From a virus, in IMG/VR virus record IMGVR_UViG_3300030380_000984, positions 1 to 26,092 of that record: a stretch of DNA of 26,092 bases; one strand, written 5' to 3'. The position numbers and the translations under genes were made by a program. Positions 1,588-25,125 of the stretch are shown piece by piece (within the stretch, counting starts at the first letter, position 1; each line of letters starts with the position of its first letter). Below the pieces are notes generated by a model. That model did no database searches, had not been told where the DNA came from, and worked only from the letters and a program-made list of their open reading frames with translations.

Positions 1588-3327
1588 ATGCCAGATACAT
1601 CAACACTACAGCCAGCAGCTTTTAATTGCGAAGGTGGGCTAGTTTTAAACAGGTCTGCTTTTCTTATGCAACCAGGAGAAGCATTAGTTTTACAAAACTT
1701 TGAGCCTGACGTTGAAGGGGGATACAGACGTATAAACGGTTTTCGCAAGTACGTTAATCACATAGTACCTCAAACCAACAACTCTAGTGAAAAGATTTTA
1801 ATGTCTGCTATATTTGCGGATAGGGTAGTTGCAGCTAGGGGAGAAAGAATATATAGTGCAGGTTCAACAGAACTTTCACTAAAGATAGTATCTACTACTG
1901 CAATGACAGGTTCTGGAACTATTTCGGTAGAATCAACATCTGGTTTTTCATCTAGCGGTACGCTTCAAATAAATAGTGAAATATTTACATACACAGGAAT
2001 AACATCTGGTACTTTTACAGGTGTAACTAGAGCAGCCTCAAGCACAACTGCAGCAAACCACGCAACAACAGATACAGTGTCTGAAAGCTGGACTCAAAGA
2101 GACACAGACAGAACCAACGCAGACAAGTACGCTTTTGAAAGATTTAATTTTGATGGTAACGAAAAACTAATTTGTGTTGACAGAGCTAATGCCCCTGTAG
2201 TTTTTAATTCATCGATGGGCGCTACAGACGTTAGTGAAAGCGCAGTATCAGGTTCTAAATTTGTTGCTGCTTTTAGAAATCACATGTTTTACTCAGGTAA
2301 ATCTTCTACACCACAAACATTAGTGTTTAGCGAACCTTTTGATGAAGATGCTTTTGATTCAGGTAATGGCGCTGGCTCTATTAAAGTAGACGATACCATA
2401 GTTGGTTTAAAAGTATTTCGTGATAACTTATTTATATTTTGCGAGAATAGAATATTTAAACTTACTGGTAGTGGCCTAAGTTCTTTTGCGATTGAACCTG
2501 TAACCAGAAACATTGGATGTGTTAATGGCGGCACTATTCAAGAATTTGCAGGTGACTTAATCTTTCTTGGTCCTGATGGTTTAAGGACTGTTGCTGGTAC
2601 TGCTAGGATTGGTGACGTTGAGCTAGGAACAATATCTAAAAAAGTACAGTCTTTGTTTGATGATCAAATATCAGATGCATCTCTTTTTGAAAGTGTTGTT
2701 TTACCAGACAAAACACAGTATAGATTATTTTTTAGTAAAGATGCACGTGTACAAAAAAGAACAAAAGGTGTAATATGTGTTATGAAGGGTGATGGCTTTG
2801 AGTTTGCTGAAACTCTAGGTATAAAACCGTCTAGCACAGATACGTTTGTAGAAGAGGGTGATGTACAAGTTATTCACGGCACTTTTGATGGTTTTGTTAT
2901 GAGACAAGAAAAAGGAGATAACTTTGATGGTGCGGCAATACAAGGAAGATACAGAAGTCCTGATTTAAACTTTGGAGATGTTGGTATTAGAAAGTTGATG
3001 CACAGGGTTATATTGAACTATGCACCAGAGGGGGCTTTAAGTGCTGACTTACTTTTACGTTATGACAATGAGTCAACAGGTGCGGCAAGACCTGCACCTT
3101 ACAGTTTAAGCACAGCTTCAGTAGGATCACAATATGGCGTATCTACGTATACTACCCCAGCATCTACAACACAGTTTGTTTACGGAGGAGGATCGCAGCC
3201 TCTAGTAAGACAGCCTGTAGAAGGTTCAGGTTTTACTGTTGCATTAAGAGTGGATGACAATGGAGAGTCTCCTCCATATTCACTAAAGGGATTTCAATTA
3301 GAATATCAGTTAGGAGCTAGACGTTAA
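1588..3327 (+). CDS. Tail tubular protein B-like (nozzle) protein with inserted module
   Basis: A 579-residue protein whose ATG lies one base after the upstream stop, so it is translationally coupled to the preceding tail-tube gene. The N-terminus contains GGLVLNRSAFLMQPGEALVL and NFEPDVEGGYRRINGF, a pattern typical of marine podovirus nozzle proteins. The body is beta-rich. At about residues 101-165 it carries a Thr/Ser/Gly module (STSGFSSSGTL, FTYTGI, FTGVTRAASSTTAA) closely similar to that in the previous gene. The C-terminus ends with short beta segments and GFQLEYQLGARR. By analogy with T7 gp12 it would form the tail nozzle, but T7 gp12 is longer (about 790 residues) and the identity rests on order and motifs. 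Confidence 0.65.
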   Translation: MPDTSTLQPAAFNCEGGLVLNRSAFLMQPGEALVLQNFEPDVEGGYRRINGFRKYVNHIVPQTNNSSEKILMSAIFADRVVAARGERIYSAGSTELSLKIVSTTAMTGSGTISVESTSGFSSSGTLQINSEIFTYTGITSGTFTGVTRAASSTTAANHATTDTVSESWTQRDTDRTNADKYAFERFNFDGNEKLICVDRANAPVVFNSSMGATDVSESAVSGSKFVAAFRNHMFYSGKSSTPQTLVFSEPFDEDAFDSGNGAGSIKVDDTIVGLKVFRDNLFIFCENRIFKLTGSGLSSFAIEPVTRNIGCVNGGTIQEFAGDLIFLGPDGLRTVAGTARIGDVELGTISKKVQSLFDDQISDASLFESVVLPDKTQYRLFFSKDARVQKRTKGVICVMKGDGFEFAETLGIKPSSTDTFVEEGDVQVIHGTFDGFVMRQEKGDNFDGAAIQGRYRSPDLNFGDVGIRKLMHRVILNYAPEGALSADLLLRYDNESTGAARPAPYSLSTASVGSQYGVSTYTTPASTTQFVYGGGSQPLVRQPVEGSGFTVALRVDDNGESPPYSLKGFQLEYQLGARR

Positions 3328-6300
3328 TGGGCGCTACATATACAAGACAGTCTACATACTCAGAGGGTGACGTAATACAAGCATCAGACACTAATGATGA
3401 GTTTGATCAACTTCTCGCAGCCTTTGCAGCTAGTACAGGACACACACACGATGGTACAACAGGAGAAGGCGGCCCTATTAGTACGATGGCAGGGCATAGT
3501 TTAACCTTTGGTGCTGGTACTACAGGTACAGACATTGTACTTACCTTTGACGGTGAATCTAATGACGGTGTATTAAAATGGATGGAAGACGAGGATTACT
3601 TTGAGTTTTCTGATGATATACTTGTTGCTTCGACAGAAAAGTTACAGTTTCGTGATACTGCTATTTATATTAATTCTAGTGCTGATGGTCAGCTTGATCT
3701 TGTTGCTGACACTGAAATACAAATTGCAGCTACCACTATTGACATCAATGGTGCTGCAGATATATCAGGTAACTTAGCAGTAGGCGGCAATCTTACTGTA
3801 GCAGGTAATGCTACGGTCACAGGCACTACTACATTTAATGGTGGTACACTAACACTAGGTGACTCAGCTTCTGATAATGTTGTATTTGGTGCTGATGTTG
3901 ATTCAAGTATTATACCTGATGACGATGATACGTATGACTTAGGGTCTTCTAGCCAACAGTGGCGTAATATATTTATTGATGGCACAGCAGAAATAGATAC
4001 CCTTTCTCTTGATGGTACTGCTGTTACATCTACTGCAGCAGAACTAAACATACTGGATGGTGTTACATCTACTGCAGCAGAGCTTAATATTGTGGATGGT
4101 AATACTTCAGCTACCTCTACTACTGTAGCTGATGCTGATCGTGTCGTACTAAATGACAATGGCACAATGGTACAAGTTGCTGTCACAGACCTTGCTGCAT
4201 ATTTTGACGATGAAATAACTGCAATGCCTAACCTAGTTACTACTGCAGCTACAACAGTAGGAGCACTTAACTCAGGAAGTATTACATCAGGTTTTGGCAC
4301 TATTGATACTGGCTCTAGTACTATTACAACTACAGGATTAATTACAGGTGGCTCTCTTGATATAGATGATGTAGTAATAAATGGTTCTACTATAGGGCAT
4401 ACAGATGATACTGATCTTATAACTGTCGCTAATGGTATTGCCACAGTTGCAGGTGAGCTATCCGTAACTACGCTTGATATAGGTGGTACTAATGTAACAG
4501 CAACTGCTACGGAACTAAACTTACTAGATGGTGTAACTTCTACCACTGCTGAACTCAATATTCTTGATGGAGTGACTTCAACTACAGCAGAGTTAAATAC
4601 ATTAGATGGCATAACAGCAGTTGTTGGAGAACTCAACGCTCTTGATTTAGGTAGTACTGCTGTAGGTACAGCCATTGCATCTAAAGCAGTCGTGCTAGAT
4701 TCTAACAAAGACTACACTGGCATAAGAAACCTTACACTTACAGGTGATCTTACCGTTGGCGGTGATGATCTCACTATGTCTACTAACACTGCAGGTCACT
4801 TGTTGATTGCAGACGGTACAAATTTTAATCCTACAGGTGTAGGTGATCTATCAGAGATTAGCACAGTAGCTAACGATGATGTATTTTTAGCTGTAGATAC
4901 TTCTGGTGGTGGGCTTAAAAAAATTACACGTAGTACTATAGTTTCTGGGCTTGCCACATCTAGCGGTCTATCTAACGTAGTAGAAGACACCACACCACAG
5001 CTAGGTGGTTCTCTTGATGTTAATGGAGAAGATATTGTATCTGTATCAAACGGTAACATTACACTAACACCCAATGGTTCAGGTGTTGTTAGGATAGATG
5101 GCTCTAACGGTATTGATATGCAGTCAGGTGGTATCTCTATTAAAAACTCTGGAGCACAATCATATGTTAGATTTTATTGTGAGGTTTCTAATGCACACTA
5201 TGCTCAACTACAAGCTCCTGCTCACTCAGCATTTAGTGGAAACATAACACTAACACTACCTGCTGCCACAGATACATTAGTCGGTAAAGCTACAACAGAC
5301 ACACTAACTAATAAAACTTTTGGTGACAATGTAAGCTTCGGTGATAACAACATTACTAACGTAGGTGACATTGCACTAGACTCTATTAGTGCTGATGCCA
5401 CAGATATAAACGTAGCTGTTACGGACAACTCAGCCACTGCCTTTACAATTAAACAAGGATCAGATGCTTACTTTGTAGTTGACACAGGTAACAGCAGTGA
5501 GTCTGTATCTATTGGTACAGGTGTGTCAGGCACAGCCATTACATTAGGGCACAGCACCTCAGAGGTTACAGTCGCAGACAACCTTACAGTTACAGGTGAC
5601 TTGACTGTATCAGGCACAACCACAACAGTAAACTCTACGACTGTAAATCTTAATGATCACAACATTGTTCTTGATAGTGGTAACAGTACATCTGCAGTAA
5701 TAAATGGCGCAGGTATTACAATAGAGGGCGGTAGTGGTGACGATGCTACATTTACTTATAATACTACAGGTCCAAAGTTTGAATTAAAACTAGGGTCTAG
5801 CCATGAAGACTTACAAGTTGCCCAGCTTATTGCAACTTCTTTAGATATTTCTGGTGATGTGGATGTGGACGGTACTTTAGAAACAGATGCATTATCTATA
5901 AATGGCACAGCAGTTACTGCTAGTGCTGCAGATATTAATCTAATAGATGGTATTACAAACGGAACTGTAATAGCTAGTAAGGCTATTATAACTGATTCTA
6001 ACAAAGATATATCAGGCGGTAGAAACATTACAATCTCAGGTGAGCTTGACGCAGCTACATTAGATATATCAGGTAATGCAGACATTGACGGTACACTAGA
6101 AGCAGACGCTATCACAGTAAATGGAACTGCTCTTAATACAGTTATAGCAGGTGTTACTGTAGCTAATGCAACAACTGCAGCAGTAGCAACAACAGTTACA
6201 ATTACAGATAACGAAAGCACTAATGAAGACAATGCAGTTATATTTACTGCAGGTGGTGATGTAGACGGTGGAAACATAGGTTTGGAGAGCGATGGCAATT

Positions 6301-7553
6301 TAACCTACAATCCAAGTACAGGAAGGTTAACAGCAACTCAATTAGCTGGTACACTACAAACTGCTGCACAAACTAACATCACATCTTTAGGTACACTGAC
6401 AACTCTTACTGTAGATGACATTACAATTAATGGCTCAACCATTAGTGATGGTGGTGATCTTACTATAGATGTTGGTGGTGATATTATTTTAGACGCAGAT
6501 GGTGCGGACGTTACATTAAAAGATGCTGGCACACAGTACGCTGCATTTACAAATAGTTCTGGCAATCTACTTATTTATTCAGGCACAACATTTGCTCAAT
6601 CCTTTAGTGGTGCTAATGCTGCGTTTCAAGGAACAGTTACAGCTAACTCAGGAGTAATTGTAGATAATATTACTATTGATGGCCAAGAGATAGACGTATC
6701 TTCTGGTGATCTTACTGTAGATGTTGCAGGTAATATTGTTTTAGATGCTGATGGTGGGGGAATTTATTTTAAAGATGCAGGAACAACTGTAGGTTTCTTT
6801 CAAAATGACGGTGGGGATTTCAGGATGATATCCTCTGTGTCTGATAAAGATATTAATTTTTTAGGAAACGATGGTGGATCAACTATAACTGCCCTTACCT
6901 TAGACATGTCAGAAGCAGGGGCTGCTACGTTTAATTCTACTGTACGAGCTACAGGTTTTAATATTGGTGGTACAGCAATTACATCAAGTGCTGCTGAGTT
7001 AAATAAACTAGATGGTGTTGGTACACTTAAACAAGCAGGTAAAGAAAGTATTTGGATTCCTGCTGCTGCTATGTATCCTAGCACTACTAATCCTTGCTCT
7101 GACTTAACTCAAGTAGAAACAACAGCAGGTAGACCAGATTTAAAAGTTCTAGATTTCGCTACTGGTGCAGATGATTTTGCACAGTTTACTATAGCATTTC
7201 CTAAAAGCTGGAACGAAGGTACAATAACATTTCAGCCTTTTTGGACTGTGACAGGAACTAACACAGGTACAGTTGCATGGGGATTAGCAGGTGTGTGTGC
7301 ATCAAATGATGATTCAATTAATACTGCTTTTGGAACTGTTGTAGTAACTACAGCACTAGCCCATAGCGGAACTTCTAATGATTTAATGGTTTCTGCTGAA
7401 AGCGGTAATGTTACAATAGCAGGTACTCCTGCTGCTAATGATTTATGTTTCTTTCAAGTTAGTAGAGATGTGTCAGCAGATGATCAATCTGGTGATGCAA
7501 GACTTTTAGGTATAAAATTGTTCTTTACTACAGATGCAGCAAATGACGCGTAA
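3327..7553 (+). CDS. Large repetitive tail fibre protein
   Basis: A 1408-residue protein; its ATG overlaps the previous stop by one base (TAATG). The N-terminus (residues 1-50, YTRQSTYSEGDVIQASDTND and THDGTTGEG) is typical of marine phage fibres and probably attaches the fibre to the tail. The shaft is built of Thr/Gly/Asp-rich strands with repeats of the form T-x-A-E-L-N-x-L-D-G near residues 236-260 and 391-440, a variant near 865 and one near 1220. Residues about 755-785 hold DLTVSGTTTTVNSTTVNLND, another shared fibre segment. The last 165 residues, from about 1240 (WIPAAAMYPSTTNPC ... FPKSWNEGTI ... VSRDVSADD), form a distinct globular-looking beta domain seen on other marine phage fibres. 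No enzymatic motif was seen. It probably forms a trimeric fibre for receptor contact. Confidence 0.85.
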   Translation: MGATYTRQSTYSEGDVIQASDTNDEFDQLLAAFAASTGHTHDGTTGEGGPISTMAGHSLTFGAGTTGTDIVLTFDGESNDGVLKWMEDEDYFEFSDDILVASTEKLQFRDTAIYINSSADGQLDLVADTEIQIAATTIDINGAADISGNLAVGGNLTVAGNATVTGTTTFNGGTLTLGDSASDNVVFGADVDSSIIPDDDDTYDLGSSSQQWRNIFIDGTAEIDTLSLDGTAVTSTAAELNILDGVTSTAAELNIVDGNTSATSTTVADADRVVLNDNGTMVQVAVTDLAAYFDDEITAMPNLVTTAATTVGALNSGSITSGFGTIDTGSSTITTTGLITGGSLDIDDVVINGSTIGHTDDTDLITVANGIATVAGELSVTTLDIGGTNVTATATELNLLDGVTSTTAELNILDGVTSTTAELNTLDGITAVVGELNALDLGSTAVGTAIASKAVVLDSNKDYTGIRNLTLTGDLTVGGDDLTMSTNTAGHLLIADGTNFNPTGVGDLSEISTVANDDVFLAVDTSGGGLKKITRSTIVSGLATSSGLSNVVEDTTPQLGGSLDVNGEDIVSVSNGNITLTPNGSGVVRIDGSNGIDMQSGGISIKNSGAQSYVRFYCEVSNAHYAQLQAPAHSAFSGNITLTLPAATDTLVGKATTDTLTNKTFGDNVSFGDNNITNVGDIALDSISADATDINVAVTDNSATAFTIKQGSDAYFVVDTGNSSESVSIGTGVSGTAITLGHSTSEVTVADNLTVTGDLTVSGTTTTVNSTTVNLNDHNIVLDSGNSTSAVINGAGITIEGGSGDDATFTYNTTGPKFELKLGSSHEDLQVAQLIATSLDISGDVDVDGTLETDALSINGTAVTASAADINLIDGITNGTVIASKAIITDSNKDISGGRNITISGELDAATLDISGNADIDGTLEADAITVNGTALNTVIAGVTVANATTAAVATTVTITDNESTNEDNAVIFTAGGDVDGGNIGLESDGNLTYNPSTGRLTATQLAGTLQTAAQTNITSLGTLTTLTVDDITINGSTISDGGDLTIDVGGDIILDADGADVTLKDAGTQYAAFTNSSGNLLIYSGTTFAQSFSGANAAFQGTVTANSGVIVDNITIDGQEIDVSSGDLTVDVAGNIVLDADGGGIYFKDAGTTVGFFQNDGGDFRMISSVSDKDINFLGNDGGSTITALTLDMSEAGAATFNSTVRATGFNIGGTAITSSAAELNKLDGVGTLKQAGKESIWIPAAAMYPSTTNPCSDLTQVETTAGRPDLKVLDFATGADDFAQFTIAFPKSWNEGTITFQPFWTVTGTNTGTVAWGLAGVCASNDDSINTAFGTVVVTTALAHSGTSNDLMVSAESGNVTIAGTPAANDLCFFQVSRDVSADDQSGDARLLGIKLFFTTDAANDA

Positions 7554-7562
7554 GAGGTAACA

Positions 7563-8414
7563 ATGACTAGTTTTGGTTATAATGTTTTAGGTTTTGGTTC
7601 TTTTCCTGCAAGAGGCGCACCCCCAGGTCAACAAGCATATACATCTGCTGGTGCATATTGTTGGGAAGCTCCTGCAGGTGTTACATCTGTCTCTGTAGTT
7701 GCTGTTGGCGCAGGTGGCGCAGGTTCTATTTCGTACTCTCGTGGATCAGGTGGCGGCGGTGGTGGACTTGGCTATAAAAATAATTATACAGTAAGCCCTG
7801 GAAGTACCTATACTGTTACTGTTGGTGCTAAAGGAGTACACTCATATACTGCATCAGATCGTGCTGGTGGAGATAGTTCTTTTGTAAACACATCTACTGT
7901 TAAAGGTGGCGGCGGTGGGGCTGGAAGTCCTAATAATGTTGGCTCTGGCGAAAATTCTTTTGGTGGTGATTTTACAGGAGATGGTGGTGGAAATGGTGGC
8001 GGTAGTACTTATGACTCTGGAAATCACTCTTCAGCAGGAGGCGGTGGTGCTGGTGGCTATTCAGGAGATGGTGGGCAAGGTCGGGCTTCTTTTGCTGCAG
8101 GTGAAAATGGATCAGGCGGTGGAGGTGGCGGCGGCGGTGGCATTGCTAATGATAATCAACCCAGTGGATATGGTGGAGGAGTTGGTATTTTAGGAGAAGG
8201 TAGCAGTGGAACTGGAGGTTCCGCAGGAGGCTACTATGGAGCTAATCGTCATGGTTATGCTGGTTCAGGTGGTTCTGGTCAAACATATGGCGGTGGTGGC
8301 AAAGCTTATAAATCGTCTGTTTCTTCTGTTTCTGATGGTGGACCAGCAGCAGTTCGTATTATATGGCCTGGATGTGCTAGAAGTTTTCCAAGTACGTGTA
8401 CTGGCGATAAATAA
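7563..8414 (+). CDS. Glycine-rich tail adhesin
   Basis: A 283-residue protein with GAGGT 4 bases before the ATG. Residues 24-50 (QAYTSAGAYCWEAPAGVTSV, then VVAVGAGGAG) match the glycine-rich-domain entry motif common in phage tail-tip proteins. Residues about 50-255 contain many runs of three to nine Gly broken by Ser, Asn, Tyr and Asp, suggesting stacked polyglycine-II helices like those in T4-type gp38 adhesins, although this is not a demonstrated homologue. The C-terminus GGPAAVRIIWPG and FPST is a recurring ending of marine phage glycine-rich proteins. It follows the fibre gene directly and probably sits at the fibre tip as the receptor-binding part. Gly codons dominate, making local DNA GGT/GGC-rich and prone to length change. 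Confidence 0.75.
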   Translation: MTSFGYNVLGFGSFPARGAPPGQQAYTSAGAYCWEAPAGVTSVSVVAVGAGGAGSISYSRGSGGGGGGLGYKNNYTVSPGSTYTVTVGAKGVHSYTASDRAGGDSSFVNTSTVKGGGGGAGSPNNVGSGENSFGGDFTGDGGGNGGGSTYDSGNHSSAGGGGAGGYSGDGGQGRASFAAGENGSGGGGGGGGGIANDNQPSGYGGGVGILGEGSSGTGGSAGGYYGANRHGYAGSGGSGQTYGGGGKAYKSSVSSVSDGGPAAVRIIWPGCARSFPSTCTGDK

Positions 8415-8884
8415 TGGCAAATCGTTTATACATAAAAATTGATGACAATGGTGATCACATTGGACACCCTCGTTTTGAAAGCAATTTAAAACAAATTTTT
8501 ATTGACCACGATTTTGATAGCGGCCCACCATCAGGCTACATGTTATTTATTCGTAGTGAACCGCCTTTATTAACTCCATATCAAAAATTTAATGAGGCTA
8601 TTGGTGGTAATATTGCAATAGCATTTAAACATAATGGCCTTTCTTATGATATAGTTGATGGTGTTTATAAAGATGTATGGCATGTTTTAGACATGACTGC
8701 AGAAGAAATTGCAGCCAAACAAAAATTTACAAAAGATGAGTGGGTTGCAAATGGGGGTTACGCATCTTGGGTCTTTAATGAAACAAATTGCGCTTTTGAT
8801 GCTCCTGTCGCATATCCTGAAGATGGACAAGTATATACATGGGATGAAGATACTGTATCTTGGGTAGTAGTAACTCCAGAGTAA
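8414..8884 (+). CDS. Putative tail-fibre assembly or tip-associated protein
   Basis: A 156-residue protein whose ATG overlaps the adhesin stop by one base. Residues about 10-50 (DNGDHIGHPRFESNLKQIF, PPSGYMLFIRSEPP) and 83-100 (VYKDVWHVLDMTAEEIAA) resemble the small proteins found next to fibre and adhesin genes in cyanophages and other marine phages. The C-terminal 40 residues have spaced aromatic and Pro motifs, ASWVFNE, APVAYPEDG and YTWDEDTVSW, also recurrent in that group. This pattern is known from phage tail proteins, but I cannot assign a formal family. Its position suggests a chaperone or a small tip subunit for the adhesin. Composition here is intermediate between the fibre genes and the AT-rich cassette that follows. 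Confidence 0.6.
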   Translation: MANRLYIKIDDNGDHIGHPRFESNLKQIFIDHDFDSGPPSGYMLFIRSEPPLLTPYQKFNEAIGGNIAIAFKHNGLSYDIVDGVYKDVWHVLDMTAEEIAAKQKFTKDEWVANGGYASWVFNETNCAFDAPVAYPEDGQVYTWDEDTVSWVVVTPE

Positions 8885-9478
8885 ATGTATATACGTAAAA
8901 TTAATACTGCTATTGTTTGTCCAACAAAAACTGGAACACACACTTTTGAAAAAATAATTACAGAAAATTATTTAGAAGATGATCAAACATTATTTATAAA
9001 ACAATTTACCCACCCCACAGCAAGCAGAATAAAAAAAATTGTGCATAGTAAATATGGAAAAAGTATTTCAAACAAATGCAAGTTTGTTGCACATATAAGA
9101 GAACCAATAGATAGATATGTTTCTGCTCTTAATCATAGGTTTGGTGAAGATAATATAAGTTTAGATAAAGCCATAGATAAATCATTTATTACCATAGCTG
9201 ATATTGTTTTTATTCCTCAAATATATTGGTTAGATTGCATGTACCTAAAACAAGAATTATTTTTATCACAAATTAATTTATTGAGGCATATAGGTTTTAA
9301 AGGAGAAGTTCCCCATTTAAATAAAAGTGTACCAAAATTTTCAATAGGTCAAATTAAAAATCATAAATACTATCCATTAATAAAAGAAAAATATAAATTA
9401 GATTATAGATTATATAAACGTGCTACTTTACAAATAAATAATAATATGATATGCTCACAAAAGAAAGTGAGTGTATAA
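8885..9478 (+). CDS. Sulfotransferase-like protein
   Basis: A 197-residue protein starting at the base after the previous stop. Residues 9-20 (AIVCPTKTGTHT) resemble the 5'-phosphosulfate-binding loop of PAPS-dependent sulfotransferases, which has the form PKTGTT/S, here with an inserted Thr in P-T-K-T-G-T. Residues 67-81 (FVAHIREPIDRYVSA) match the 3'-phosphate-binding segment, with R72 and S80 as expected ligands. Near the C-terminus, PHLNKS (143-148) and EKYKLDYRLYKRA (168-180) resemble the end of the sulfotransferase family 2 fold. The length is short but workable for this fold. It would move a sulfate group from PAPS to an unknown acceptor, perhaps a sugar on the host surface or the virion. 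Codons are strongly AT-biased. A degenerate, non-catalytic member is possible because the loop is not canonical. Confidence 0.65.
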   Translation: MYIRKINTAIVCPTKTGTHTFEKIITENYLEDDQTLFIKQFTHPTASRIKKIVHSKYGKSISNKCKFVAHIREPIDRYVSALNHRFGEDNISLDKAIDKSFITIADIVFIPQIYWLDCMYLKQELFLSQINLLRHIGFKGEVPHLNKSVPKFSIGQIKNHKYYPLIKEKYKLDYRLYKRATLQINNNMICSQKKVSV

Positions 9479-10233
9479 TGTTTAAAAGAAAACACAATAA
9501 TATAAAGTATGAATTTTTTCCTCGTAATAAGGAAGTACTTTATGATAGTTTAGTAACGCCAATATCTGAAACTATAATACCTTGGCGTAAAGGAGCAGTA
9601 GACTCAGATAAAGAAAGTAAAAATCTTGATCGAAGAAGTGGTCGAACAGATATTTGTTCAGGAATTAGTTTACAAAATAAAATAGGATGGTTAGTTAGAT
9701 CATGGACTGATATGGAAGTACAACTTGATCATAATACAGGTTTTATTAATGTACATTTTCCTAGCAAAGATATTGGAGAAATGGGTTTCAATCCTGTAGG
9801 ATTTTTTCAATCTCATCTTTTTACGGATTTTGTAAAAGTACCAGACGGAACTTTTCCAACACTATTAAAAATAAATACGCCTTGGAGATTTAAATGCCCT
9901 AAAGGGTGGGGAATAATGCACTCTCCTTTACATTATCATAATCAAACAGATTATTATTCTTCAACAGGTATATTAGACCCAACGCACATAAATGAATTAA
10001 ATCCAGTTATGTTTATAAACACAAAAAAAGATAAATTCTTAATACGTCACGGTGATCCTTTATTTCAAATAACTCCTATATGTTTAGCCCAACCAGATTA
10101 TGTTTGTAGACCTATGACAGAAAAAGAAAGTGGTTGGGAGTATATGATAAACCATGTATTTAGAACAAGATTTAGGCCAGCAAAAAAAGCATTTACAGAT
10201 TTAAATAGTTTATATTTCTCTAGTAAAAAATGA
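9478..10233 (+). CDS. Uncharacterised protein, DUF6065-like
   Basis: Start chosen at ATG 9478, which overlaps the upstream stop (TAATG), giving 251 residues; an in-frame ATG at 9451 would add nine residues but lies inside the upstream gene. The middle region (LLKINTPWRFKCPKGWGIMH, then TGILDPTHINELNP) and the later RHGDPLFQITPI resemble the pattern I remember for DUF6065: a beta-rich core with a G-[DE]-P-[LI]-x-Q-I-x-P-I motif. I could not verify this by search. The function of that family is unknown. There is no signal peptide, membrane segment or obvious metal site beyond several scattered His. It is coupled to the sulfotransferase-like gene upstream and overlaps the oxygenase-like gene downstream by four bases, so the three are probably co-translated. 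Confidence 0.5.
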   Translation: MFKRKHNNIKYEFFPRNKEVLYDSLVTPISETIIPWRKGAVDSDKESKNLDRRSGRTDICSGISLQNKIGWLVRSWTDMEVQLDHNTGFINVHFPSKDIGEMGFNPVGFFQSHLFTDFVKVPDGTFPTLLKINTPWRFKCPKGWGIMHSPLHYHNQTDYYSSTGILDPTHINELNPVMFINTKKDKFLIRHGDPLFQITPICLAQPDYVCRPMTEKESGWEYMINHVFRTRFRPAKKAFTDLNSLYFSSKK

Positions 10234-11378
10234 GTAATAAGTTAGTTAAAGATTGGATTAAATATTTAAGTCAATCAACAGAATATAACAATGGCATTGC
10301 AAAGTGTCCTTTTGCAGAACAAGCACTAAATTCAGGCGAGGTAAAAACAACAGTAAGTAAAAACTTGTGGGAAGATGTTTTTAAAGAGTGTTTTAATTTT
10401 AAAAATACAAAACTTAAAGTTTCTATGTTTATAGATTATAATTATAGTGAAGATTACCCACTGTTAGATATGCAGTGCAAAACACTAAATAAATTTTTTG
10501 CTCAAACAAATATGGACATATGGTTGCTTGCATACTACAGACCTAAAGAAAAAGAATATATAGGAGTAAAACCAGAGGGAGCAATTATTTTTGTACAAAA
10601 GTGGAGTGATTTAGAAAATGCGTCACAAAAACTTGAGAAACTAGGATACTACAAAAACTATAATTTAGATGAATATAATTATCACGTTATGTCAAGGAGA
10701 AATATAAAAGTAATGGAGGAAGAAAAAAGTTCTGATATTGATAATAAAGAAACAATAAATGTGGAAAATCATTTTTGCACTCAAATATACAGCATACACA
10801 AACCTGAATTTTTATCTTCTGTTAAAAAAGTATCTAAAAAATACATAAAAGAAATTAAACAAAAACAAAACTTAAACTCTGTTTATCCTGTTATTATGAG
10901 TGGTAGTTATTATCACGAACCTAGCATACAAGAGTTTTGTAATTTTGTAGGTAATACAGCTTGGGATATTTTAAACAATCAAGGTTATAATCTAAATAAT
11001 TTACTTTTAAATTTTACAGAAATGTGGACACAAGAACATTATAAATATTCTAATATGGAACAACATGTACATACAAACGGCTCTCAAATAGTCGGGTTTT
11101 ATTTTTTAAAAGTTCCTGAAGAGTCTCCTAGTCTTATATTCTACGATCCTCGTGCTGGAAAAATACAAAGTAGTTTGTCTGAAAATAATACAGAAGATCT
11201 TACTTTAGCTAGTAATATTATTAATTTTAAACCAAAAGAAGGAACTTTAATTTTCACAAACTCTTGGTTAGCCCATGCCTTTACTAGAAACATAAGTAAG
11301 AAACCTTTTAAGTTTGTACATTTTAATTTAAAAACAATTGATAATATTAATAATAATACAGAAGTTGAAATAGTATGA
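10230..11378 (+). CDS. Two-domain protein with C-terminal 2-oxoglutarate/Fe(II) oxygenase-like domain
   Basis: A 382-residue protein with a 4-base ATGA overlap with the upstream gene. The C-terminal domain (about residues 190-375) shows MEQHVHTNGSQIVGFYFLKV (276-295), then LIFYDP (302-307), then GTLIFTNSWLAHAFTRN (338-354) and KPFKFVHFN (358-366). This is the layout of the phage/bacterial 2OG-Fe(II) oxygenase-like family: an HxH start, a Y-x-L-x-V-P strand, a distal His (H349) and a basic residue before the last strand (K361 where Arg is usual). H279, H281, D306 and H349 are candidate metal ligands. The N-terminal domain (1-180) contains NGIAKCPFA (21-29), which I know from uncharacterised phage proteins, and is of unknown role. 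The likely activity is hydroxylation of an unknown substrate. Confidence 0.6.
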   Translation: MSNKLVKDWIKYLSQSTEYNNGIAKCPFAEQALNSGEVKTTVSKNLWEDVFKECFNFKNTKLKVSMFIDYNYSEDYPLLDMQCKTLNKFFAQTNMDIWLLAYYRPKEKEYIGVKPEGAIIFVQKWSDLENASQKLEKLGYYKNYNLDEYNYHVMSRRNIKVMEEEKSSDIDNKETINVENHFCTQIYSIHKPEFLSSVKKVSKKYIKEIKQKQNLNSVYPVIMSGSYYHEPSIQEFCNFVGNTAWDILNNQGYNLNNLLLNFTEMWTQEHYKYSNMEQHVHTNGSQIVGFYFLKVPEESPSLIFYDPRAGKIQSSLSENNTEDLTLASNIINFKPKEGTLIFTNSWLAHAFTRNISKKPFKFVHFNLKTIDNINNNTEVEIV

Positions 11379-11614
11379 ATAAATATAGAATTAGATACAA
11401 CAAACAAAAAGGTAAATTAAATAAAGGTACAATAGATCATGCATGGAGAGTGTTTGAAGGAAATAAAAAAGAATATATTTTTAAAAATGTAGAAATAAAT
11501 GGGCTAGTAAAAACTGAAAAAGATGAAAACAATATGGATTATAATATATATTGTTACGGACATATGAAAATAAATAGAGAAACTTCTACTGCTATTATAA
11601 CAGGAAAAAAATAA
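11375..11614 (+). CDS. Small hypothetical protein
   Basis: A 79-residue protein with a 4-base ATGA overlap with the oxygenase-like gene. It is basic at the N-terminus (MNKYRIRYNKQKGKLNKG) and consists of short predicted beta strands (KEYIFKNVEING, YNIYCYGHMKIN), with no membrane segment and no known motif. I do not recognise the family. Its composition is as AT-rich as the three genes before it, and it is the last gene of that cassette: 13 bases later the GTG-started gene at 11628 returns to the codon use of the structural region. It may be a small binding protein or an accessory factor for the upstream enzymes. Confidence 0.5.
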   Translation: MNKYRIRYNKQKGKLNKGTIDHAWRVFEGNKKEYIFKNVEINGLVKTEKDENNMDYNIYCYGHMKINRETSTAIITGKK

Positions 11615-11616
11615 AC

Positions 11617-11621
11617 GGAGG
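11617..11621 (+). promoter_or_regulatory. Ribosome binding site deciding a GTG start
   Basis: GGAGG at 11617-11621 lies six bases before GTG 11628. No ATG is available nearby upstream in that frame, so this strong site supports the GTG as the start of the small membrane protein. Confidence 0.7.
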
Positions 11622-11627
11622 TTAAGC

Positions 11628-11873
11628 GTGGTTGACATTACACCAGAGCAACTAGAAGAAATGCTAGATCGTGCCGCTAAGAAAGGCGCAAGTGAAGCTT
11701 TGCGTGAGTTAGGCTTGCAAGATCAAGATGCAGCCAATGACATTAGAGACATGCGTGGTTTATTAGAAGCATGGAGATACACTAAGAAAAGTATATGGGC
11801 TACAACAGTAAAGATGGGAACTGTAGCCGTACTAACATTTTTAGCAACTGCAGTTTGGATGACGCTTAAATAA
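11628..11873 (+). CDS. Small membrane protein, DUF6127-like
   Basis: An 81-residue protein beginning at GTG with a strong GGAGG six bases upstream. Residues 7-50 (EQLEEMLDRAAKKGASEAL, LGLQDQDAANDIRDMRGLLE, AWR) match the pattern I recall for DUF6127: an amphipathic helix, then GL-x-D-x-x-A-x-D-I-x-x-[LM]-R-x-L-L-x-A-W-R, then one membrane segment (about 57-79). This family occurs in phages and gene-transfer-agent-like clusters, often near lysis genes. A role in lysis or membrane docking is plausible but unproven. It is followed 27 bases later by a second small membrane protein, also started by GTG. Confidence 0.65.
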   Translation: MVDITPEQLEEMLDRAAKKGASEALRELGLQDQDAANDIRDMRGLLEAWRYTKKSIWATTVKMGTVAVLTFLATAVWMTLK

Positions 11874-18172: not shown

Positions 18173-18615
18173 TGTTTGGTCTACCCCTAGAACTAATTAC
18201 CATGCTGTTCTCCACTATACTAGGTGGAGTGATGTCTATATGGGGTCAGTCCATAAAGGCTAAAGAAGCTAACAACAAAATGCTTATGGAACGTGCCAAC
18301 TTCAGAAAGCAAGCTGTAGATGAAGCACGTAACGCTGGCAAGGATGACAAGCACTTTGCTTGGACACGCAGACTTATAGCTTTATCTGCAGTGTTTAGCA
18401 TTATTGTCTTGCCAAAGCTAGTCGCAGTGTGGTATCCTGAAGTAAGTGTATACGTAGGATATACAGAAGCAACTGGTGGTTTTTGGAACTGGATGTTTGG
18501 ACCTGATGACGCTATCCAATGGAAGATGGCTAAAGGATTTGTAATCACACCCCTTGACACACATATTGTATCAGCCATAGTAGGATTATACTTTGGCGCT
18601 GGGTTTACTAAATAG
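18172..18615 (+). CDS. Holin-like three-TM membrane protein
   Basis: A 147-residue protein overlapping the upstream stop by one base. Three hydrophobic segments are visible: residues about 7-24, 67-88 and 129-144. A charged cytoplasmic helix (KAKEANNKMLMERANFRKQA, 29-48) lies between the first two, and a Gly/Trp/Pro-rich loop (GGFWNWMFGPDD) between the last two. The arrangement and WTRRLIALSAVF resemble the three-TM holin family linked to gene-transfer-agent release. It sits beside a peptidoglycan-binding protein and upstream of a transglycosylase-like gene, which supports a lysis role: a pore that releases a muralytic enzyme at the end of infection. A virion membrane-channel role is the alternative. 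Confidence 0.65.
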   Translation: MFGLPLELITMLFSTILGGVMSIWGQSIKAKEANNKMLMERANFRKQAVDEARNAGKDDKHFAWTRRLIALSAVFSIIVLPKLVAVWYPEVSVYVGYTEATGGFWNWMFGPDDAIQWKMAKGFVITPLDTHIVSAIVGLYFGAGFTK

Positions 18616-20833: not shown

Positions 20834-21442
20834 ATGGTAGCAATACTTATACCAAAGGATGAGGTTGTATTTGATGATGTAGAAATAACCATCCCTGATT
20901 CTGAATCCATAGAAAAAGAACCCCAAGGTTTAATGACCCCTAAGAAAAAACCTACATGGGAAAACACTGTGTACGATCTTGTATCAGAGAGACTAGGTGT
21001 AGATAAAAACATGTGGGATATATACAGAGAAGAAATAGCTAGTATAGAATCTGCAGGGTCAGGAGGATACAATGCTATGGGAGGTGCTAATGATCACTAC
21101 GATGGTAGATATCAGTTAGGTAAAGACGCCAAGATAGATGCAGCTAAGTTATTAGGGTTAACATTAGACCATAATAAAAAAGCTAGAGAGTCATTTAGAG
21201 GAGATGTAGACTTGCAGGAGAAAGCCTTTGCTGCTTACACTGCTCAAAACCATAGGTACATGATGACATCACCTGAGTATAAAAAACTTTCTGACAAAGA
21301 AAAACTGGCAGCATTAGCATACGCACACAATCAAGGACACGGTAAAGCTAAAGCATGGTTAAAGACAGGCAAAGTTAGTAAAGATTCTTTTGGAACTTCT
21401 GGCACTAAATTTTCTGACGCATTAAAGGCAGCACTACAATGA
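20834..21442 (+). CDS. Lytic transglycosylase-like virion protein
   Basis: Start chosen at ATG 20834 because of AAGGA nine bases before it; 202 residues. An in-frame ATG at 20726 would add 36 residues including a hydrophobic stretch, but would overlap the previous gene by 89 bases. Residues 65-97 (REEIASIESAGSGGYNAMGG, then ANDHYDGRYQLG) match the catalytic segment of soluble-lytic-transglycosylase-type enzymes, with E72 as probable acid/base. Later ALAYAHNQGHGKAKAWLKTG (161-180) and DSFGTSG (184-190) match the second half of the fold. The N-terminal 40 residues contain GLMTPKKKP, echoing neighbouring virion proteins. It probably opens peptidoglycan during DNA entry. The stop overlaps the next ATG (ATGA). 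Confidence 0.65.
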   Translation: MVAILIPKDEVVFDDVEITIPDSESIEKEPQGLMTPKKKPTWENTVYDLVSERLGVDKNMWDIYREEIASIESAGSGGYNAMGGANDHYDGRYQLGKDAKIDAAKLLGLTLDHNKKARESFRGDVDLQEKAFAAYTAQNHRYMMTSPEYKKLSDKEKLAALAYAHNQGHGKAKAWLKTGKVSKDSFGTSGTKFSDALKAALQ

Positions 21443-24400
21443 CAACACTTAATGATTTTTATAAAGAGTATGGTATAGAGACAGATACATCTAAAGACAT
21501 TGATACAACTACGCCTGTGTACAGAGATAACACACAGTTTGATGACATGTTTGAGTCTGATACTCGTGAGGGAGAAAAGTTAAAGAAGCAAGACTTGTAT
21601 CGAAGAGACAGGCTAAACAAGATACGCAATTACATGATAGGTAAGAAGGGGGCTACCTACAGAACAGCAGAAGCTGAGACTGTAGTGGAAGACTTTGTAG
21701 ATACTATGCGTAGGTTTAACACTAACATAGTTGCAACTGCAGGTGAAGCTAGATTCATAAGTAAAGCAGATGATAAAACTAAAAATATAGCTAAAGAAGC
21801 ATATGACTTATACGACAGTCTAGGTAATGTCTTTGTAAATGATGGTGTATTTGGCGCTATGGACGGTGTAAAGGATTACATCTTAGCAGTAGCAACTGAC
21901 CCTACAAACTACTTAGGATTAGTGACAGGCTTTGCAGGTAAAGCTGGTGCTCTAGGTGTAAGTGAAGCCAGTAAAGCAGCAATAAAAAATTCAGTAGCAG
22001 CAGCGGCTAGGAGAGCAGCACAGTCTGGTGCAACTAAAGAAGCAGCTAAAAAAGCAGGGGATGATGCAGCAGAGGCTATGATTAAGAAGCTCACTGGTAG
22101 TGGCTACACAAAAGCATCCATGACTAGGGCTGCTGATAGTGCAGCAAAAGCAGCCAGAGCAAAAGTAAGATTTGAGGCTGGGCGCAGGGCAGCTAGGAAA
22201 GCAACAGTTGAAGGTGGTGAGGTAACTCTTACAAAGGGTAGACTAAAGCCACGCACTATAAAGTTTGGTATGCAACAAGCTGGTAAGAAAGCGGTGCTAC
22301 AAACTACAGCCATTGACTCACTACTTGCTGGCTATCAAGACATGGCTATACAAGATTTATACTTAGATGTAGGCTCTCAAGAAAAGTACAGTGCAGCACA
22401 AACTGCCATGTCTTTAGCTCTAGGCGGTGTGGGTGGTGGGCTACACTACACATTTGGTAAAGCAGATGGTATATCTGGATTTGCAGAAGCAGCAGACATG
22501 GCTAGAGCAGGAACAAGAGGCGAAGAGTTTCCTCTTAAAAAATTTAAAGCTGCAAGAGAAGAATTAAAGAAGTTAAAACAAAGTGGTGCAGATAAGGATA
22601 CAATAAAGAAACAACAAAGACTAGTAAGCAAGCTTCAAAGCCAAGCAATAGGAAAGCCATTACTAGCTAAGAAATCCATAGACAAAGCTGCTAAAGAAAT
22701 GAAAGATGCAATTAAGTCTTGGGGAGAAAAAGTAAGATCAGGTAAAGAAGAGTTAGCGAAAGGAGAAGGTAATCAAATAATGCCTGAGAGTTTGCTTAGT
22801 CAAATAATGTTAGGCTACACAACTGCAGACAAAGCTACTGCAGAAGGTAAGCTTCCTGTCGGGGGGCTAGCAAAGATATTTAATGAGAACGGTATTAAGT
22901 TTTCAAAGAAAACAAAAGTCTCTGATGTTATGACAAACTTGCTACAATATATGCCAGAGGAAGAGCTTAAAGAAATATCAAAGTTATTTAAAAAAGAAAC
23001 AAGCATAGACTTAGGAACTACTGCTACACTTGCTGTGGATTTAGGAGATGTAATAGCCGCTACTACAAGTGGAGCAGGTAGCACTCTTAGTGTTATGGCT
23101 GCTGTCAGAAGAGCAACAGATGCAGGTGTCGTATCAGGAAACGAGATACTTTCAACGGCACTTGAACAAAAAGAAGTAAGAGATACTCTAGAAAAAGAAG
23201 GTTTGTTTGGTACGGCTAAAAGAGCTAAGAGATTAGGATACGCACAAAACGTATGGAAAAGATTGCTTGTGTCATCTCCTGCTACAACTGCAGCTAACGT
23301 AGCTGGCTTTGCACAGTTCTATGGTGGACAGGGTGTAGCTGATATATTTGCATCAGGGCAGCTATACGTAGCTGCTTTAGGTGCAGCTAGTGTAGGTAAA
23401 AAAGAATTAAGTCAGGATTTATTTAGAAAATCTCGTGTGTATAGAGACATACAATCTCAGAAGATGAAAAACTTTCTTGATCCTCTAGCCACCTACGAAA
23501 CTTTTGTAAACCTAATGGATGACATAGGTGATAACAAAGAGTTTAAAGGATTATTGTTTGAGACTATTGGCGGTGGGGTAGAGAGAACTGCTAAAAGATA
23601 TAACGTTGATGTAAACAATCCTGTGATTAAAAACGCAGAGATATTTGCAGATGCTTCTATGACAATAACTGGTGTTCGCGTACAAGATACATTTACTAAA
23701 TCTCAAATGTTTATGTCTGAACTAGATAAGTATGTCAGACTAAAGCACGATAAAAATTTAATTGATGTGCTGAAGTCGGGTGACATGAAAATGTTAGATG
23801 ATGATGTTATAGGTGGCGCAGTAGATACTACACTACGATCTGTGTTCTCAAAAGATTATACAACAGATGATCAGTATTTAGGTGCTGTGGCTAGGGCTGT
23901 GGAGCAAGCCTCTAATACACCTGTGTTGGGTACAGTCATCCCTTTTGGTAGATTTATGAACAACGTTGTAGCAACAGGCTATCAATGGAGTCCACTAAGT
24001 CTTGCAGGGGTTGCCTCTCGTATAGTTAAGAAAGAACCTGGCATAAAAACAAACGAAGCATTTGCTCGTTCCTTAGTGGGTACAACTGGTTTGTTACTAG
24101 CTATGGGATTGGATAATGAGAGACAGAAAAAAGGTTTAGGTGTAAACGAAATAGAGATGAGTGGAACTGTTATGGATGTTAGAAACGTCTTTCCGTTCTC
24201 GCTGTTTTTAGTTGCTGGAAGAGTTGGCAATCTTGCTGTAAAACAAGAAACTATTCCCCCTGAACTAATAGAAGAACTAGGTAATCAGTTAGCTATAGGA
24301 CAAGTTGCAAGAGACTTACAATTTGGTAATGACGTGTTTAATGCAATAGACTTCTTTTCTAGTGGGGGAAGGGGAGCAGATCTAGACGCATTGTATAAGT

Positions 24401-25125
24401 CTATGGGTAACATAGCTGCTGGCGCAACACGTCCTCTTGATGCTATTAACAGATCGATAGGTTTTTTAGCAGACAATGACAATGCAAAGGATGTTAGGCA
24501 AGCTGACGGTTTTTTACCAGTGTTTACACAGTCATCTACTAAATACTTTGATAATATATTAGAGGCTTTGGTAGGGGAGTCAGAAACTCTTACAGGTGAG
24601 AACCTACGTGTAAGTAGCAGAGAGGGTGAGATATATGATGCCAATCCTCTAGCTCGTATATTTGGTTTAAACATTAAGAGAGGTAAGACAGCCACAGAGC
24701 AAGCATATACTTTAACAAACTTACAGTCATGGAAACAAGATCAGAGATCTAATATTCCTACCTATGACAGATTGTTTAACGAAGGTCTAGCACCCATGTT
24801 AGAGAAACGTATGCAGATATTATTGTCTAGTAAAAGATTCCAAGAGGGTGACTTGGAGTACAAACGTGGCAGAGTAAAGTACGAACTTAAAAAAGCTAGA
24901 GATCAACTACGAGACTACTTTGATATTCCTGGTAGTTCAGCTTATTTAGATCAGCAAAGATACAGAGCATCTACTAAAGGTAACAACTTTCAAAAAGATA
25001 AAGCTATGAAGCACATGAAGAGTTTAGGTGTAGATGCTGAACTAAAAGACTTTAACTTTAGAGAGTTAAAAACATACGAGTCTTACATAGATCATCTAAA
25101 CATTAAAATCAAAACTGGGATGTAG
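21439..25125 (+). CDS. Giant internal virion protein, T7 gp16-like by position
   Basis: A 1228-residue protein with a 4-base ATGA overlap with the transglycosylase-like gene. The N-terminus is helical (DTREGEKLKKQDLYRRDRLN). Near residues 151-170 is ATDPTNYLGLVTGFAGKAGA, and near 606-626 KRLLVSSPATTAANVAGFAQ, motifs I associate with the large ejection proteins of marine podoviruses. Residues about 175-260 are Ala/Lys/Arg-rich helix. Near 833-855 is PFGRFMNNVVATGYQWSP, followed by hydrophobic segments (LVGTTGLLLAMGL, FPFSLFLVAGRVGNL) that could insert in a membrane. T7 gp16 (1318 residues) joins a transglycosylase to such a body; here the enzyme is a separate preceding gene. No other catalytic motif was seen. 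A hairpin terminator follows. Confidence 0.7.
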   Translation: MTTLNDFYKEYGIETDTSKDIDTTTPVYRDNTQFDDMFESDTREGEKLKKQDLYRRDRLNKIRNYMIGKKGATYRTAEAETVVEDFVDTMRRFNTNIVATAGEARFISKADDKTKNIAKEAYDLYDSLGNVFVNDGVFGAMDGVKDYILAVATDPTNYLGLVTGFAGKAGALGVSEASKAAIKNSVAAAARRAAQSGATKEAAKKAGDDAAEAMIKKLTGSGYTKASMTRAADSAAKAARAKVRFEAGRRAARKATVEGGEVTLTKGRLKPRTIKFGMQQAGKKAVLQTTAIDSLLAGYQDMAIQDLYLDVGSQEKYSAAQTAMSLALGGVGGGLHYTFGKADGISGFAEAADMARAGTRGEEFPLKKFKAAREELKKLKQSGADKDTIKKQQRLVSKLQSQAIGKPLLAKKSIDKAAKEMKDAIKSWGEKVRSGKEELAKGEGNQIMPESLLSQIMLGYTTADKATAEGKLPVGGLAKIFNENGIKFSKKTKVSDVMTNLLQYMPEEELKEISKLFKKETSIDLGTTATLAVDLGDVIAATTSGAGSTLSVMAAVRRATDAGVVSGNEILSTALEQKEVRDTLEKEGLFGTAKRAKRLGYAQNVWKRLLVSSPATTAANVAGFAQFYGGQGVADIFASGQLYVAALGAASVGKKELSQDLFRKSRVYRDIQSQKMKNFLDPLATYETFVNLMDDIGDNKEFKGLLFETIGGGVERTAKRYNVDVNNPVIKNAEIFADASMTITGVRVQDTFTKSQMFMSELDKYVRLKHDKNLIDVLKSGDMKMLDDDVIGGAVDTTLRSVFSKDYTTDDQYLGAVARAVEQASNTPVLGTVIPFGRFMNNVVATGYQWSPLSLAGVASRIVKKEPGIKTNEAFARSLVGTTGLLLAMGLDNERQKKGLGVNEIEMSGTVMDVRNVFPFSLFLVAGRVGNLAVKQETIPPELIEELGNQLAIGQVARDLQFGNDVFNAIDFFSSGGRGADLDALYKSMGNIAAGATRPLDAINRSIGFLADNDNAKDVRQADGFLPVFTQSSTKYFDNILEALVGESETLTGENLRVSSREGEIYDANPLARIFGLNIKRGKTATEQAYTLTNLQSWKQDQRSNIPTYDRLFNEGLAPMLEKRMQILLSSKRFQEGDLEYKRGRVKYELKKARDQLRDYFDIPGSSAYLDQQRYRASTKGNNFQKDKAMKHMKSLGVDAELKDFNFRELKTYESYIDHLNIKIKTGM

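Follow-up and report, generated by a model that had tools for sequence, protein, structure and literature searches.

We describe a block of four plus-strand genes at 8885-11614 of the virus record IMGVR_UViG_3300030380_000984, which was analysed over its entire length of 26,092 bases (the window) and is a fragment of one marine phage. The block encodes a sulfotransferase-like protein, a protein termed ORF2 (ORF, open reading frame), a two-domain protein (ORF3) that ends in a 2-oxoglutarate (2OG)-Fe(II) oxygenase domain, and a 79-residue protein. The oxygenase domain and the 79-residue protein belong to a conserved phage module with the order glycine-rich adhesin, g156, 2OG oxygenase and 79-residue partner. 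This module was secondarily interrupted by insertion of the sulfotransferase-like gene, of ORF2 and of the N-terminal half of ORF3. A chemical-modification module linked to the tail tip best fits the neighbourhood data, and we tentatively propose, with a confidence that falls a little short of even, that the block supplies the enzymes of a module for tail-adhesin maturation, in which the oxygenase would hydroxylate, and the sulfotransferase perhaps sulfate, a tail-tip protein.

A conserved module at the tail tip

All four members of the module are present in the window in the same order and on the same strand. They are the glycine-rich tail-tip adhesin (7563-8414, 283 residues, Gly_rich_2), the accessory protein g156 (8414-8884, family c3, phrog_7759), the oxygenase domain of ORF3 (10740-11378, family c0, PF13759) and the 79-residue partner (11375-11614, family c1). 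Between g156 and the oxygenase domain the window module is interrupted by two genes and one fused domain. The families were obtained by clustering the genes of 58 loci found in a scan with ORF3. In these loci c0 is preceded by homologues of g156 and of the adhesin (family c4) and followed by a c1 homologue, and the module is found on several unrelated downstream gene backbones.

A scan of IMG/VR with the 79-residue protein confirmed 528 relatives. Among the best 80 of these, the oxygenase gene lies directly upstream in 80 of 80, in most cases with the 4-nt overlap seen in the window, and g156 lies upstream in 64 of the 71 loci with room for it. In the reciprocal scan with g156, both the oxygenase and the partner are found downstream in 72 of 75 loci with room (68 counted by script and four by hand, where the ORF start had been called too early), and an adhesin bearing the C-terminal motif described below is directly upstream in 64 of 77. 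Clustering at 65% identity splits the c0 oxygenases into 18 groups, and an alignment of 24 partner sequences has a mean column identity of 62%. The partner occurs in a single phage record, MW202545.1, and gave two matches among 84,980 cellular genomes, both on contigs of metagenome-assembled genomes. Against the PDB it gave weak matches only, the best of which (diamine acetyltransferase 1, E 0.026) we judged to be due to chance.

For the first-pass annotation, a lack of joint conservation of these genes in any relative would have counted against the idea, and this turned out to be half true. All four occur together in just one other contig, IMGVR_UViG_3300032086_000359 (the sister contig; ~97% DNA identity over the shared stretch), and the pair of oxygenase and 79-residue protein is conserved across hundreds of loci. 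Recent acquisition of this pair as one unit with the sulfotransferase is rejected, since both genes belong to the wider-spread module. By profile and predicted fold, the ORF3 oxygenase falls in the same family as the phage 2OG-Fe(II) oxygenases of PHROG 81 (PF13759/TIGR02466), which are usually annotated as auxiliary metabolic genes (AMGs). The window clade differs from other PHROG 81 oxygenases in its fixed neighbourhood (motif adhesin, c3, 2OG, c1), its constant 79-residue partner and its near absence from isolate records, where MW202545.1 is the one example.

The tight packing noted in the first pass was confirmed. The sulfotransferase-like gene (8885-9478, 197 residues) overlaps ORF2 (9478-10233) by 1 nt in the string TAATG, and ORF2 overlaps ORF3 (10230-11378), as ORF3 does the 79-residue gene (11375-11614), by the 4 nt ATGA. 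ORF2 has an alternative ATG start at 9451. Upstream, g156 ends at 8884, where it abuts the sulfotransferase-like gene, and its first nucleotide (8414) is shared with the end of the adhesin gene. Thus, the packing continues through g156 and the adhesin gene, and the gene string spans 7563-11614.

The adhesin matches PF21722 with 31.4 bits, above the Pfam cut-off of 24.3. Its C terminus in the window reads AAVRIIWPGCARSFPSTCTGDK, with the motif-aligned tail VRIIWPGCARSFPSTCTGDK, and the consensus across adhesins is VRIIWPG-[TNC]-[TSA]-R-[SQ]-[FY]-P-S-T-[NC]-[TV]-G. We know of no modifying enzymes associated with the gp38-type adhesins of T4-like phages. Those polyglycine adhesins (e.g. PMC12892980) appear alike in being glycine-rich receptor-binding tip proteins that end the fibre genes, and the VRIIWPG..R.FPST C terminus sets the module adhesins apart. 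The motif is also carried by jumbo or large enterobacterial and Pseudomonas phages, among them Erwinia phage pEa_SNUABM_49, Pseudomonas phage pPa_SNUABM_DT01 and Proteus phage 10, and no oxygenase is annotated within 4 kb of the motif adhesin in these three.

Predicted folds of the block proteins

ORF3 had been described in the first pass as a two-domain 2OG-Fe(II) oxygenase-like protein, and profile and structure searches bear this out. The C-terminal domain matches PF13759 with 40.9 bits (cut-off 27) and TIGR02466 with 53.2 bits, the latter under the NCBIfam cut-off of 62.5. Its model has predicted local distance difference test (pLDDT) values mostly above 85 in residues 181-310, and the fold is predicted to be a double-stranded β-helix. 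The top structural matches are 2rg4 and 3bvc, uncharacterised roseobacter 2OG proteins (Z 19.4, root mean square deviation (RMSD) of 2.8-2.9 over 184-188 residues), well above the next matches at Z 15.3-16.4. These are mainly peptidyl-prolyl hydroxylases and include P. putida prolyl 4-hydroxylase (P4H), algal P4H with a Ser-Pro peptide, PHD2, collagen P3H1 and the viral vCPH. Residues H279, H281 and H349 are invariant in 27 oxygenases and the DPR loop is nearly so. The HxH and distal His align with those of 3bvc and 2rg4, and the predicted iron ligands are conserved.

The N-terminal domain of ORF3 (10230-10739, phrog_28122) was modelled with pLDDT mostly below 60. It is homologous to HMO-2011 gp66 and CRP-345 gp78, which are stand-alone proteins of HMO-2011-type phages. 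Proteins of this type have ~170 residues, a conserved CP[FY]A motif and a weak likeness to DUF1415. Fusion of such a domain to an oxygenase is found in the window lineage only. The window also encodes a 1228-residue protein (21439-25125) with 45% identity to its counterpart in Roseobacter phages CRP-603 and CRP-207, which are classed as HMO-2011 type (PMC9038755). Because the extension is homologous to stand-alone proteins of its own phage group, ORF3 is a fusion of an own-group domain with a travelling oxygenase.

ORF2 had been called DUF6065-like. It matches phrog_7084 (E 2e-20) and gave no direct Pfam match; DUF6065 (PF19541) matched neither ORF2 at E <= 1 nor anything in the window at E <= 10. 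Direct membership of DUF6065 is rejected on this basis. However, the ORF2 profile matches two tandem proteins in one contig, L014, and one of these (L014:9108-9863) passes the DUF6065 cut-off (27.5 against 26.6). Through this intermediate, sequence comparison makes ORF2 a remote relative of DUF6065. L014 also carries a c3-c0-c1 set, and a few genes beyond it the tandem pair follows a further 2OG oxygenase (PF13640).

A model of ORF2 built with 32 sequences (pLDDT 80.8) resembles dUTPases, with a Foldseek E of 2.6e-4 to 6ky8 and a VIA Z of 10.9 to 2y8c (RMSD 2.5, 124 residues). All 50 structural matches listed are dUTPases. We therefore predict a dUTPase-like β-clip fold, at ~9-19% identity to that family and with additional N- and C-terminal parts in ORF2. 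Asp167 lies in a motif-3-like GILDP at the position of the dUTPase catalytic Asp and is invariant in 32 of 32 sequences, and a motif-4-like GDPLxQ is present. No motif-5 P-loop tail was seen in ORF2, the C-terminal motif 5 apparently being replaced by helices. Since L014:9108-9863 is both homologous to ORF2 and a DUF6065 member, the whole DUF6065 family may share the dUTPase-like β-clip fold.

The sulfotransferase-like protein contains PTKTGTHTFE, which resembles a site for 3'-phosphoadenosine-5'-phosphosulfate (PAPS), and HIREPIDRYVSA. These were read by eye as motifs like the 5'-phosphosulfate-binding (5'-PSB) and 3'-phosphate-binding (3'-PB) elements, and the Pfam match spans the 3'-PB region. 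A search of 50,697 phage records with a limit of E 0.1 gave no relative, a sequence search of the PDB gave no match, and in IMG/VR the sister contig holds the single relative, with none in the other loci compared.

All four block genes are stop-free in both contigs that carry them. Between these two contigs, non-synonymous changes per site (pN) are far below synonymous ones (pS) in the block genes, ORF2 excepted. The oxygenase domain has a pN of 0.006 and a pS of 0.101, the sulfotransferase-like protein has no amino-acid change, and ORF2 is the least constrained (0.026 against 0.047). The oxygenase and the sulfotransferase-like gene are under purifying selection between the two contigs.

Proposed function and competing explanations

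We propose that the oxygenase would hydroxylate the freshly made adhesin, in its glycine-rich region or in the conserved VRIIWPG..R.FPST tail. The prolyl-hydroxylase-like fold suggests a protein substrate, of which the adhesin seems the likeliest. The 79-residue protein and g156 may help or target the oxygenase, as partners of either the substrate or the enzyme. In the window lineage, the inserted sulfotransferase could use PAPS to sulfate either that tail protein or a hydroxyl that the oxygenase has introduced, and ORF2 may be a binding or adaptor protein. Such a modification might tune how the tail tip folds, how stable it is or how it binds its receptor.

Related genes are arranged in a comparable way in T4-like cyanophages, where one or two tryptophan halogenases immediately precede the ORF2 family, which in turn is followed by PF13759 and other 2OG/JmjC-type oxygenases. 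Glycine-rich ORFs occur within 5 kb upstream of the ORF2 family in 65 of the 66 cyanophage-type loci with enough upstream sequence, and the same 66 loci hold 164 glycine-rich ORFs in the upstream 5 kb against 19 elsewhere. The clusters of Syn10, S-RIM44, P-TIM40 and S-CREM1 share with the window the ORF2 family (phrog_7084), PF13759 oxygenases and upstream glycine-rich tail proteins. They differ in carrying a halogenase, whereas the window phage carries a sulfotransferase-like gene instead. No family-c1 partner was found in those loci, and their ORF2 homologues are ~20% identical to the window protein. We take VirX1, a viral halogenase that has been characterised, to derive from Syn10. The arrangement suggests that the cyanophage halogenases have a tail-protein substrate. 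The cyanophage cluster is stereotyped (L161-L240 from IMG/VR, L009 and L158-L160): glycine-rich tail proteins of ~285 residues, often two or three, are followed by a ~165-residue protein, the tryptophan halogenase or halogenases, the ORF2 family and then several 2OG/JmjC-type oxygenases, and in S-RIM44 the cluster reaches the neck gene product gp13.

Taken together, the loci suggest that a large number of uncultured phages alter the chemistry of their own tail tips. A broader view, which we regard as speculative and rather doubtful, is that uncultured aquatic phages widely encode adhesin modification systems with interchangeable chemistries on a common core. Hydroxylation would be provided by the 2OG oxygenase and its 79-residue partner, halogenation by the cyanophage halogenases and sulfation by the window phage, the last two variants sharing the ORF2 family with its dUTPase-like fold. 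If this is true, marine viral halogenases and many phage 2OG oxygenases would naturally act on the tail of the phage that encodes them. The substrates of phage 2OG oxygenases, sulfotransferases and cyanophage halogenases are a long-standing question, which can now be addressed directly by mass spectrometry. For one large oxygenase clade, the linkage described here singles out a candidate substrate, namely the tail adhesin whose gene lies upstream, and a dedicated partner protein. If confirmed, chemical modification would add a new layer to phage host recognition. We found no paper in the literature covered (open-access, with few subscription papers) that links the modification of tail proteins to the 2OG oxygenases, halogenases or sulfotransferases of phages. 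The four-gene linkage, the 79-residue partner and the logic shared with the cyanophage halogenase clusters are apparently undescribed in the open-access literature, and the individual parts, the 79-residue protein excepted, all belong or relate to known families.

Several observations weigh against maturation of the adhesin by these enzymes. The loci are mutually related, so the counts do not represent independent events, and 14 of 65 oxygenase-partner loci have no motif adhesin nearby. The motif VRIIWPG..R.FPST is also found in S-CAM22, P-SSM2 and Erwinia jumbo phages with no oxygenase annotated close by. The motif is thus not diagnostic of modification, and its use as an oxygenase-specific substrate signature is weakened by these jumbo phages and cyanophages. 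The small-molecule enzymes SnoN and HygX are among the listed fold neighbours of the oxygenase, so a prolyl-hydroxylase-like fold leaves the substrate unfixed. The sulfotransferase-like gene, the in-block ORF2 and the ORF3 fusion are known from a single lineage. Finally, the sulfotransferase-like protein scores below the Pfam cut-off of 22 both for PF03567 (20.8 bits, E 4.7e-4) and for PF00685 (14.1 bits, E 0.03). Together, the PAPS-like motifs and these sub-threshold scores hint at membership of the PAPS sulfotransferases.

The genes could instead serve host metabolism or takeover, the oxygenase using up 2OG or repairing or modifying DNA and the sulfotransferase acting on host metabolites, at a tail-gene site that is merely tolerated and gives late expression. 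This fits the usual reading of both enzyme types. Phage 2OG-Fe(II) oxygenases, which rank with the commoner AMGs of aquatic phages, are usually explained through DNA repair or 2OG metabolism (2OG drawdown or DNA repair, PMC3037559; DNA repair, PMC11288001; see also PMC9964418). The category given to PHROG 81 is 'moron, auxiliary metabolic gene and host takeover', and the function of phage sulfotransferases has been called unclear (PMC10580990). However, a free AMG is unlikely to keep the same flanking gene to its left and to its right in almost every locus, to share the exchange events of the adhesin, or to be so nearly restricted to phages as the two cellular matches indicate. Moreover, no DNA-repair-type oxygenase family matched ORF3 in the Pfam search, and we consider this explanation unlikely. 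We think it similarly improbable that the oxygenase-like and dUTPase-like domains have no catalytic activity and that their folds serve as tail-tip or chaperone components. The double-stranded β-helix and the β-clip are common in virion proteins, all the genes sit among structural genes, and the apparent loss of motif 5 from ORF2 would suit such a role. Yet a scaffold need not retain three invariant histidines, which align with those of solved relatives, and a near-invariant DPR loop, and the invariance of Asp167 in ORF2 also speaks against it.

The first pass had placed the chemistry either on the tail or on host surface sugars, to change the receptor or exclude other phages. The link to the tail tip stands as the best fit to the neighbourhoods, but a change to host sugars or phage exclusion found no support. 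On that reading the enzymes would alter host surface polysaccharide during infection and so block binding of progeny or rival phages. Sulfotransferases commonly act on sugars, the genes adjoin the receptor-binding tip, and their joint exchange with the adhesin would suit a matching of receptor and modification. Against this, the conserved core holds no known glycan-active enzyme, the sulfotransferase is absent from the oxygenase, 79-residue and g156 set in all but one lineage, and the overlapping starts within a string of structural genes favour late co-expression with tail proteins over early exclusion. We regard host-surface modification as very unlikely, and maturation of the tail adhesin remains our preferred reading.

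The exchanged stretch and its base composition

The block lies in a stretch that has been exchanged horizontally among near relatives. We scanned for loci with the DUF6127 gene, which follows the block at 11628-11873 on the plus strand, and obtained 80. The most window-like of these have very different genes between the long tail fibre gene and DUF6127, namely repeat proteins plus a 288-residue protein, or one 887-residue protein. For L071, L074 and L076, which are among the nearest relatives, DNA homology to the window breaks up at ~5894-6174, inside the long tail fibre gene (3327-7553, plus strand, 1408 residues), and resumes at 11618, 4 nt beyond the stop of the 79-residue gene. These borders, the distal part of the fibre gene on the left and the DUF6127 flank on the right, define an exchanged stretch of ~5.4 kb that includes the fibre tip, the adhesin and g156. 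The idea of acquisition as a unit therefore holds for the horizontal exchange, but the unit is not the four genes: it starts in the fibre gene and takes in the adhesin and g156.

A glycine-rich ORF is nearby in 35 of the 68 DUF6127 loci with upstream sequence, and the motif adhesin is present in one of the 68, the sister contig, which is also the single one with the oxygenase. The DUF6127 gene is the conserved right flank of a tail-tip exchange slot in many phages. In L071 (3979-7129), L074 (2599-5006) and L089 (2686-4829), this slot holds at least two tandem repeat-protein genes (motif ITIASTGNATDFGDL), which represent a different adhesin type.

The low G+C content of the block was reproduced. 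At 27.1% it is the minimum among all 2730-nt windows of the sequence, no window of that length that avoids the block falls below 37.0%, and the counts of 9 G/C in 60 at 9361-9420 and 24 in 60 at 18361-18420 were as first given. The conclusion that this AT-richness signals acquisition was not supported by calculation of G+C and codon usage. The bias resides mainly in codon positions 1 and 2 (G+C of 0.28-0.38 in the block against 0.41-0.51 in other structural genes). At position 3 the block has 0.125-0.183 (background mean 0.225, sd 0.042), and the upstream adhesin gene is similar at 0.155. Synonymous codon choice is native-like (log-likelihood z of +1.7 to +2.8), and an argument for acquisition from foreign codons is therefore rejected. 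Genes related to that of the oxygenase are slightly more AT-rich than the loci in which they lie (mean -3.6 points, n = 137). Thus, the bias stems mainly from amino-acid composition, and composition alone is no proof of recent acquisition.

In the sister contig, ~480 nt of the repeat region of the long fibre gene are missing between aligned blocks relative to window positions 6385-6979; this gap may be a true deletion or a collapsed assembly.

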